DNA of 64,000 nucleotides from Variovorax sp. Root411. GTDB taxonomy: Bacteria > Pseudomonadota > Gammaproteobacteria > Burkholderiales > Burkholderiaceae_C. The notes under the pieces are model-generated. The model was given only the letters and a program-made list of their open reading frames with translations. It was not told where the DNA came from and did no database searches. This document shows positions 32,339-36,154 of this stretch, piece after piece; positions within the stretch are counted from its first letter, which is position 1; the number at the start of each line of letters is the position of its first letter. Position numbers and translations under genes: made by a program. The stretch spans positions 559,928 through 623,927 of the forward strand of contig NZ_LMDW01000001.1 in NCBI RefSeq assembly GCF_001425205.1. Direction: 5' to 3'.

Positions 32339-33820
32339 ATGATCTTCAAAGTCGAGGGACACAAGTTTCGTTCCGGCCTGCTGGCTCTAATGCTCGCACT
32401 GACAGCTGGCGCCACATTCCTGCCGGTCGAGCCGGCCCATGCGCAGACGCGCACACTGCCCGATTTCACCGACCTGGTCGACCAGGTCGGCCCCTCCGTG
32501 GTCAACATCCGCACTGTCGAAAAGGTCGCGCAGCGCGGCGGCAACGGCGAGATGGACGAGGAAATGCAGGAGTTCTTTCGCCGCTTCTTCGGCCAGCCGC
32601 TGCCCGGTACGCCGCGCTCGACCCCGCGGCCGAACCGGCCGCAGCAGCCGCAGGAAGAGGAGCGTCCGCGCGGCGTGGGCTCCGGTTTCATCCTCACGGC
32701 CGACGGCTACGTGATGACCAACGCGCACGTGGTCGAGGACGCCTCCGAAGTGCTGGTCACGCTGACCGACAAGCGCGAGTTCAAGGCCAAGATCATCGGC
32801 GCCGACAAGCGCACCGACGTCGCGGTCGTCAAGATCGAGGCCACGGGCCTGCCCGCGGTGAAGGTCGGCGACATCTCCAAGCTGCGCGTCGGCGAATGGG
32901 TGATGGCCATCGGCTCGCCCTTCGGCCTCGAGAACACCGTCACCGCCGGCATCGTGAGCGCAAAGCAGCGCGACACCGGCGAATACCTGCCGTTCATCCA
33001 GACCGACGTGGCCATCAACCCCGGCAACTCGGGCGGCCCGCTGATCAACATGCGCGGCGAAGTGGTCGGCATCAACAGCCAGATCTACTCGCGCTCGGGC
33101 GGTTTCATGGGCATCTCGTTCTCGATCCCGATCGATGAGGCGATCCGCGTGAGCGAGCAACTGCGCACCTCGGGGCGCGTTTCGCGCGGCCGCATCGGCG
33201 TGCAGATCGACCAGGTGACCAAGGACGTGGCCGAAGCCATCGGCCTCAGCAAGGCGCAGGGCGCGCTGGTGCGCGGCGTCGAAGCCGGCTCGCCGGGCGA
33301 GAAGGCCGGCGTGGAGCCGGGCGACGTCATCACAAAGTTCGACGGCAAGGCCATCGACAAGCCAAGCGACCTGCCGCGCCTGGTGGGCAACACCAAGCCG
33401 GGCACCAAGAGCACGCTCACGGTGTTTCGCCGCGGTGCTTCGCGCGACCTCAGCGTGACCATTGCCGAGATCGAGCCCGACAAGCCTGGCAAACGCGCGA
33501 GCGACCGCGACGAGCCGGCGCCGAAGCCGCCGGCATCCGCTGCCCTCAAGTCGCTTGGCCTGGCCGTGAGCGATCTCACCGACGCGCAGAAGAAAGAGCT
33601 CAAGCTGAAGGGCGGCGTGAAGGTCGATGCGGCCAGTGACGCCGCGGCCCGTGCGGGCCTGCGCGAGGGCGACATCATCCTGGCGGTGGCGAATGTCGAG
33701 GTCTCGAACGCCCGCGAATTCGAGTCGGCCGTCGGCAAAGCCGACAAGAGCAAGGCGCTCAGCGTGCTGTTCCGGCGTGGCGATTGGGCGCAGTACGCGC
33801 TGATTCGTCCTGCACGCTGA
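32339..33820 (+). CDS. degP: Periplasmic serine protease DegP/MucD (HtrA family)
   Basis: Degrades or refolds damaged envelope proteins. From ATG 32339 the protein has 493 residues: a signal peptide cut after AHAQ (near 38), then a trypsin-like domain with the His in TNAHVVED, the Asp in DKRTDVAVVK and the Ser in INPGNSGGPLIN, giving an intact triad. Two PDZ domains follow (about 280-370 and 400-490). A GTG at 32282 would add an unlikely N-terminus ahead of the signal peptide. It ends the sigma-E cluster, with a strong terminator behind it. It is called mucD in several relatives. Confidence 0.95.
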   Translation: MIFKVEGHKFRSGLLALMLALTAGATFLPVEPAHAQTRTLPDFTDLVDQVGPSVVNIRTVEKVAQRGGNGEMDEEMQEFFRRFFGQPLPGTPRSTPRPNRPQQPQEEERPRGVGSGFILTADGYVMTNAHVVEDASEVLVTLTDKREFKAKIIGADKRTDVAVVKIEATGLPAVKVGDISKLRVGEWVMAIGSPFGLENTVTAGIVSAKQRDTGEYLPFIQTDVAINPGNSGGPLINMRGEVVGINSQIYSRSGGFMGISFSIPIDEAIRVSEQLRTSGRVSRGRIGVQIDQVTKDVAEAIGLSKAQGALVRGVEAGSPGEKAGVEPGDVITKFDGKAIDKPSDLPRLVGNTKPGTKSTLTVFRRGASRDLSVTIAEIEPDKPGKRASDRDEPAPKPPASAALKSLGLAVSDLTDAQKKELKLKGGVKVDAASDAAARAGLREGDIILAVANVEVSNAREFESAVGKADKSKALSVLFRRGDWAQYALIRPAR

Positions 33821-33839
33821 TCCGGCGTTGGCGTCAAGT

Positions 33840-33876
33840 GGCCCCACCCGGCAGTCGGGTTTGGGGCCGTTTTTTT
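33840..33876 (+). terminator. Terminator after degP/mucD
   Basis: GGCCCC pairs with GGGGCC, enclosing an inner CCCG-GCAGT-CGGG hairpin, followed by G and seven T. It is a textbook intrinsic terminator 20 nt after the degP stop. Confidence 0.9.
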
Positions 33877-34342
33877 GAGGGGTTTGCGACGTTCTGGCGC
33901 CAGCCTGGAAAAAAATCTGACGGTCTGAAAATGCCAATTTTTGTTTGCGACCACTAACTTATCAGAAGGCTTAGGACGGATTTCGGTAGAATAGGGCATC
34001 CGCGGCGGGCGGTCAGTGCATAAGGAGTGTCCTGACCTTCACGATGCGAGATGTCAGACAGCAGTCCACCGGTGCTCCACAGATCGCCCACAAGTTGTTC
34101 AGCAAGTGCTCCACCGATTCTGTTGATAACCTGTTCATATCTTTGATGTTGTGGACCTGCAACGACCCCTTTGGACCCTGTTCCCGGATGTACGTGCTTC
34201 CCTTTTTGCCTACAATGAAGTTCCAACTACTGCAGTTGCCATTGCTTGTTGGTTCAGGGCGCGTCTCCAGAAGACGCGCCCTTTTTTCTTGCCTGTCGCA
34301 CTCTGCGCACGAGCCAATTCAAGTACTTAAGCGTTCCCGTTG
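33877..34342 (+). other. 466-bp gene-free stretch before lepA, ncRNA or leader candidate
   Basis: No convincing protein gene. TAGAAT at 33987-33992 and TACAAT at 34211-34216 are possible -10 boxes, both with poor -35 matches. Small inverted repeats occur: CTGAC and GTCAG at 34032-34057, and CCAAC and GTTGG at 34222-34252. A second strong terminator ends at 34287, 55 nt before lepA. Because degP is terminated at 33876, anything stopped at 34287 must start in between, which suggests an independent short RNA or an attenuated lepA leader. Confidence 0.45.
34257..34287 (+). terminator. Strong intrinsic terminator upstream of lepA
   Basis: A perfect 10-bp stem, GGGCGCGTCT and AGACGCGCCC, with a 5-nt loop and six T directly after it. 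It stands between an unexplained intergenic region and lepA, so it ends either a small RNA or a premature lepA transcript. Confidence 0.85.

Positions 34343-36154
<1,812 letters not shown>

Follow-up and report, generated by a model that had tools for sequence, protein, structure and literature searches.

A conserved RNA gene upstream of lepA in Variovorax and its family, with predicted pairing to the starts of HC2-like and SWIB mRNAs

In 5′-leader transcription attenuators, a promoter is followed by a short leader RNA, an intrinsic terminator and then the gene. Other short RNAs repress mRNAs for DNA-binding proteins. The Chlamydia trachomatis small RNA IhtA is reported to base-pair through its loop 1 with a 7-nt stretch spanning the AUG of hctA, which encodes a histone H1-like protein, and to repress its translation (PMC4355289); the second target of IhtA is a small DNA-binding protein (PMC4355289, PMC8343073). 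Salmonella RaiZ represses hupA at the ribosome site (PMC5391140). In this study, we analysed a compact RNA unit lying before lepA in Variovorax. Comparison of its sequence with that of its relatives and candidate targets leads us to propose, with a probability of roughly 0.7, that the RNA of 34221–34287 acts in trans as a small RNA and prevents HC2-like and SWIB mRNAs from being translated.

The putative transcription unit between mucD and lepA

The window, a 64,000-nt stretch of Variovorax sp. Root411 DNA (contig NZ_LMDW01000001.1), contains an intergenic gap between the end of mucD/degP at 33820 and the start of lepA. A first-pass annotation had described this gap as enclosed by two strong terminators, free of protein genes and shifted towards A/T, and all of these points were borne out. 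The mucD terminator (Table 1) folds well and ends in a T run, and it was absent from the output of a mechanical terminator scan; the downstream terminator has a stem of 11 pairs (8 of them G–C) and a loop of 5. The G+C content is 50.8% at 33877–34256 compared with 66.5% in mucD and 62.7% in lepA, and the lower-G+C stretch between the mucD terminator and the compact RNA unit is about 330 nt long. Four small ORFs were followed through 34 gaps from Variovorax and near relatives, and none was convincing as a protein gene: two remain open in just 18 and 16 of the 34, a third is open in 30 with its start codon retained in 18, and an antisense ORF of 49 aa is open in 31 with its start retained. A plasmid DNA search with the mucD–lepA gap as query gave no match.

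Two further claims of the annotation held in part. Of the pair of −10 candidates that it named, the one that fits the RNA is TACAAT at 34211, which hardly varies. TAGAAT at 33987 is well conserved in Variovorax, less strictly in other genera, and does not adjoin the RNA. No clear −35 was seen for either box, and a sigma-70 scan gave no full promoter. The block that contains TAGAAT has the motif CACTAACTT..TTTCGGTAGAATAG and is a possible second promoter. As to the several inverted repeats that had been pointed out, the two hairpins of the RNA are supported, but the fold of 33993–34130 is no better than shuffles (z −0.9). An interrupted inverted repeat, TGTTG..GCAACG, at 34148–34168 is conserved in many relatives and is a possible regulator site.

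We infer the 5′ end of the RNA from the −10 box and its 3′ end from the T run. The resulting 67-nt RNA, present as a single copy in its own genome, folds at −30.8 kcal/mol compared with −15.6 (sd 3.0) for shuffles, and the fold z in three relatives ranges from −4.6 to −6.6. In stem-loop 1, CCAAC/GTTGG enclose the loop GCAGUUGCCA. A promoter of its own, an intrinsic terminator and no ORF, as expected of a trans-acting base-pairing small RNA, are thus found at the sequence level, with a clear −35 missing.

Table 1. Positions of features in the mucD–lepA region of the window
Feature	Position	Strand	Evidence
Intrinsic terminator of mucD/degP	33837..33877	+	Fold −21.8 kcal/mol, T7; stem retained in most Variovorax rows
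Upstream conserved block with −10-like TAGAAT (33987–33992)	33954..33994	+	34-gap alignment; looser in other genera
Two DnaA-box-like nonamers, 11 bp apart: TGTTGATAA (34121–34129), TGTTCATAT (34132–34140)	34121..34140	.	Weak variants here; consensus in many relatives
Promoter block TTTTTGCC-TACAAT-GAAG	34203..34220	+	−10 at 34211–34216; nearly invariant in 34 gaps, kept in most wider loci
Putative small RNA gene, about 67 nt	34221..34287	+	Covariance models R1, R2; fold z −5.1
Stem-loop 1, CCAAC (34223–34227)/GTTGG (34248–34252)	34223..34252	+	Two-sided changes: 1 outer-stem pair, 3 inner-stem pairs
Predicted seed TGCAGTTGCCAT, complementary to AUGGCAACUGCA	34231..34242	+	GCAGTTGCC in 72/79 LepA loci; 13- and 12-nt target matches
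Intrinsic terminator	34256..34287	+	Stem 34256–34282, T run 34282–34287; two-sided changes at 3 pairs
lepA (EF4), possible cis-regulated gene	34343..36154	+	Pfam LepA_C 1.3e-49; starts 55 nt after T run

Conservation in the family and the order

In an alignment of 34 gaps, the sequence from TTTTTGCC through the end of the terminator was almost unchanged and the flanks were variable. These rows comprised 29 loci of one set and five fetched by LepA, two of the five being duplicate records by content; L004 was dropped, as were six loci in which mucD was not matched (L041, L047, L052, L073, L075 and L091). Among 80 loci fetched by LepA similarity alone, 79 had enough upstream sequence, and the loop stood at the RNA's place before lepA in 72 of them; L107, the 73rd with the motif, was excluded, its copy lying 281 nt upstream, outside that place. 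In most of the seven loci without the loop there (L054, L056, L079, L086, L087, L092 and L107), lepA is still preceded by a −10-like sequence and by a hairpin plus T run. A separate set of 70 distinct RNA sequences was chosen by the presence of GCAGTTGCCA, so that loop invariance within it is by construction and the LepA-selected loci give the unselected figure.

Two covariance models were used, R1 built from 51 distinct sequences and R2 from 67 matches that included more distant relatives. In the R2 alignment 97.8% of cells pair and two-sided changes occur at 7 of 17 pairs, a number reached by none of 500 shuffles and compared with at most 3 in slid controls, these counts resting on an alignment fitted to the tested structure, which favours the structure. 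At E 0.001, R2 found a match in 348 of the 399 GTDB family genomes, in almost every case a single one; by our reading of the table about 320 matches had E below 1e-10 and 28 lay above, most of the weak ones being degenerate. The loop was checked in 27 of these 28 weak-match genomes and in 20 no-match genomes; a lepA start was obtained in 42 of the 47, among which the loop was intact in 4, altered in about 8 and lost in the rest. Of 300 genomes of the order, R1 matched 30 at E 0.01, and the genuine copies were those of only nine genomes of the own family, all before lepA. The other matches (fetched loci L120–L140) were rejected as terminator-like sequences without the combination of loop and lepA. 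In all 38 RNA loci checked (9/9 from R1, 29/29 from R2), lepA followed within 400 nt.

Searching Rfam with the whole window at gathering thresholds gave no match, and a permissive search of 33821–34345 gave five, all below threshold. The best of them, RF00519 suhB/mmgR, resembles the RNA in a UGC.GUUGCC-like start and a similar terminator, and its score of 20.2 bits against a gathering value of 41 (E 0.088) gives no membership. No description of the RNA was found in the literature searched, which is weak evidence of absence since subscription papers were mostly outside reach. Both the stem and the upstream sequence, the features whose conservation in relatives the first-pass annotation had stressed, proved to be conserved across the family, and for this reason we take the unit to be real. 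We infer that it is almost certainly a conserved, family-wide and previously unlisted RNA gene.

The RNA could be thought of as nothing more than a second terminator for the mucD operon, and in several short-gap genomes it does provide the sole visible terminator between mucD and lepA. This is scarcely credible for the present genome, in which mucD has a terminator of its own, and the conservation of stem-loop 1 and of the −10 box would be needless.

Two DnaA-box-like nonamers lie at −90 and −79 relative to the −10 of the RNA. Of 77 loci, 50 contain a strict TTATNCACA box (1% of shuffles) and 59 the 11-bp tandem (0.03% of shuffles). TCCACAG and CCCACAAGTTGT-like sequences, conserved across the family, are also present at about 34075–34100. 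The fixed spacing of the tandem would suit a gap that serves mainly as a DnaA-binding regulatory site and yields the RNA incidentally. We consider this very unlikely: the most conserved part of the gap is the RNA itself, L049 retains the RNA although its box region is gone and its mucD–lepA gap is just 147 nt, and eight more loci (L053, L067, L071, L072, L073, L075, L080 and L089) have the RNA but no box by our test. DnaA binding as the primary function was therefore rejected, and a link of the putative boxes to replication is a lead only.

The surroundings of lepA were also surveyed beyond the family, by reading 29 of the 39 other order-level genomes with LepA matches and likewise 29 in the class. 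Among the matches listed (L146–L174), from 29 other families of the order, a terminator precedes lepA in 20, and TANAAT lies 10–100 nt ahead of it in 16; the shuffle rates were 7.4% for a terminator and 0.2% for TANAAT plus terminator. In the class survey the corresponding numbers, again among the matches listed, were 7/29 and 3/29. The stem sequences AAGGGCAC..GTGCCCTT are alike in many families of the order. Taken at face value, a promoter-like sequence, a short leader and a terminator before lepA are a feature of the Burkholderiales, and the structured RNA of the family looks like an elaboration of this older unit.

These data bear on the other explanation offered by the first-pass annotation, a leader that attenuates lepA–lepB, which gained support from the order-wide pattern. 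Since promoter and terminator recur before lepA across the order, it is possible that the RNA doubles as an attenuated leader of lepA, and at the level of sequence both elements are indeed present in the leader of lepA itself. In 11 of the 16 order families with the complete unit (among the matches listed), the stem ends no more than 20 nt from the lepA ATG, which leaves little room for another promoter. The start codon directly follows the U run in L090, L096 and L104; barring misleading assemblies, transcription of lepA in these loci has to pass the hairpin. Moreover, the −10 and the terminator are retained in many genomes that lost the loop, and L073 and L075 retain the RNA and lepA with no mucD found upstream. 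It was also observed that 34315–34342 contains no Shine–Dalgarno-like sequence ahead of lepA (AAGCGTTCCCGTTG-ATG), many relatives being alike.

In its exclusive form, the leader reading holds that transcription starts at TACAAT and mostly stops at 34287, that read-through sets lepA–lepB expression, and that the loop senses a protein or an RNA. We judge this exclusive form unlikely, given that inspection by eye shows no alternative pairing that would free the terminator, and that the match of the loop to HC2-like and SWIB gene starts is left unexplained. The small-RNA and leader readings are compatible, however, and regulation of lepA in cis, whether as the sole role or as a further one, appears likely enough to test.

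Predicted targets and the state of the loop

The undescribed small RNA that the first-pass annotation had offered as its other option is supported and gains a predicted target set, which that annotation had not foreseen. The loop sequence is complementary at every position to AUGGCAACUGC, which opens with a start codon. The genome has 11 ATGGCAACTGC sites including that of the RNA itself, and all 10 non-self sites were read. Two of them are gene starts with a Shine–Dalgarno-like purine run and a long open frame, and both genes encode proteins with K-rich tails. One product is a histone-like protein of HC2 type, 173 aa long (Pfam HC2, E 3.8e-19); the other is a SWIB protein of 147 aa whose tail is histone-like (Pfam SWIB, E 2.1e-27). 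The perfect loop–target runs are 13 and 12 nt for the two genes, compared with a longest run of 9 among 181 candidate window starts and of 10 among 20,000 fragments drawn at random from the window. Free duplex energy was rejected as a target test; the values of −24.7 and −24.5 do not discriminate against a median of −19.7 and a minimum of −29.8 over the 181 starts. Whole-genome enrichment of ATGGCAACTGC, compared by eye between family and order, showed no clear difference. The RNA thus carries a conserved seed, predicted to be single-stranded and complementary to the starts of distant mRNAs.

The conservation of these starts was followed by listing MATAKK starts (ATGGCNACNGCNAARAAR) in 60 family genomes, 120 genomes of the order and 47 genomes in which the RNA match was weak or absent. 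In 51 loop-intact genomes, a state taken from the model score in 21 and confirmed in all 30 that were read, 97 of 104 starts were exact, compared with 23 of 41 in 24 loop-lost genomes; altered-loop genomes had 9 of 9. Eight altered-loop genomes and G423, G432, G434 and G617, in which the region upstream of lepA was unread or doubtful, were kept apart. In other families 11 of 27 were exact, which shows that some preference for these bases is independent of the RNA. Classification by motifs of our own rather than by Pfam placed 97 of the 104 loop-intact and 39 of the 41 loop-lost sites. In the loop-intact genomes, exact starts, unchanged at synonymous sites too, were found for HC2-like (43/43), SWIB (37/37), HU-like (7/8) and other K-rich proteins (1/1), and for 2/8 unrelated MATAKK proteins; in the loop-lost genomes the numbers were 8/14 for HC2-like, 12/21 for SWIB, 1/1 for K-rich and 0/3 for other proteins. 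The unrelated MATAKK genes are an internal control, with the same peptide in the same genomes and no conservation. For HC2 and SWIB together, the difference between loop-intact and loop-lost genomes gave a Fisher p of 1.4e-9 in a test that treats genomes as independent. Codon 2 is GCA in 99 of 104 starts, and codon 4, which also encodes Ala and has its wobble position outside the match, is GCA in 50 and GCG in 48. The MATAKK start also occurs in phasin-like (L412) and HU-like proteins (L293, L303, L313 and L414), and most HU-like genes begin with ATGGCAACTGC.

Four loop-intact genomes without a MATAKK match were searched with the SWIB protein. Three of them (G344, G347 and G366) have a short SWIB gene that begins exactly with ATGGCAACTGC, retained even though the protein differs after MATA; the start of a second SWIB copy in G366 deviates. 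Among the loop-lost genomes in this search, G449, G479 and G412 deviate and G446 and G465 are exact. A LepA tree of 67 rows, 57 of them with both traits, contains about six changes of loop state and three supported independent pairs, too few for a sign test. Where the loop was lost among intact rows, the target drifted in G412, G360 and G449 and was unchanged in G465, G551, G446, G454 and G641, and one large loop-lost clade holds many of the deviating target genes. In one genus with five changed-loop genomes (GCAGATGCC in four, loop lost in G523) the target is unchanged, and the GCAGATGCC lineage has no compensating target change.

Given these observations, the trans-acting small RNA that we favour would be transcribed from TACAAT and end at the T run, and its stem-loop 1 presents GCAGUUGCC(A). 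The loop is predicted to form a duplex of 12–13 nt with HC2-type and SWIB mRNAs, covering the start codon and the codons right after it, and so to block ribosome loading, the HU-like proteins of relatives being perhaps further targets. As the RNA seems to have arisen on the older promoter-plus-terminator unit ahead of lepA, early termination of transcription may provide a further, cis-acting adjustment of lepA. A short, loop-rich RNA with an invariant loop could instead titrate a protein or another RNA; this is most improbable, as the family-wide complementarity to the same two gene starts would then be a coincidence. More speculative, and in our view doubtful, is an extension of the trans-acting reading into a replication-linked chromatin switch, in which the DnaA boxes would couple the attenuated lepA-leader RNA to initiation and the released RNA would silence the HC2-type histone, SWIB and also HU-like proteins through their shared 11-nt start. 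If that were true, one 67-nt RNA would run the chromatin-protein regulon of a whole bacterial family.

Comparison with described systems

The lepA locus has the same order of promoter, leader, terminator and gene as 5′-leader attenuators, and an antiterminator or sensor is not apparent there. The order-wide promoter–terminator unit bears on the control of lepA, lepB and the genes that follow. On prediction, the Variovorax RNA would work like IhtA and RaiZ. RaiZ differs in being derived from a 3′ UTR and in requiring ProQ (PMC5391140), whereas the Variovorax RNA follows a promoter-like sequence of its own in front of lepA. The likeness to IhtA, one of working and not of membership, is that of a short stem-loop RNA with a loop complementary across the AUG of a histone-like mRNA. 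Chlamydia, however, belongs to another phylum, and the Variovorax match covers 12–13 nt inside the coding start, compared with the 7 nt around the AUG reported for IhtA.

The two named targets and the 12-nt duplex make the prediction directly testable. If it is true, an undescribed small RNA controls histone-like proteins throughout a family that includes Variovorax, Acidovorax, Comamonas, Polaromonas, relatives of Roseateles and others. The start-codon strategy would then be that known for Chlamydia HctA, and two distant lineages would have converged on the same control of bacterial chromatin.
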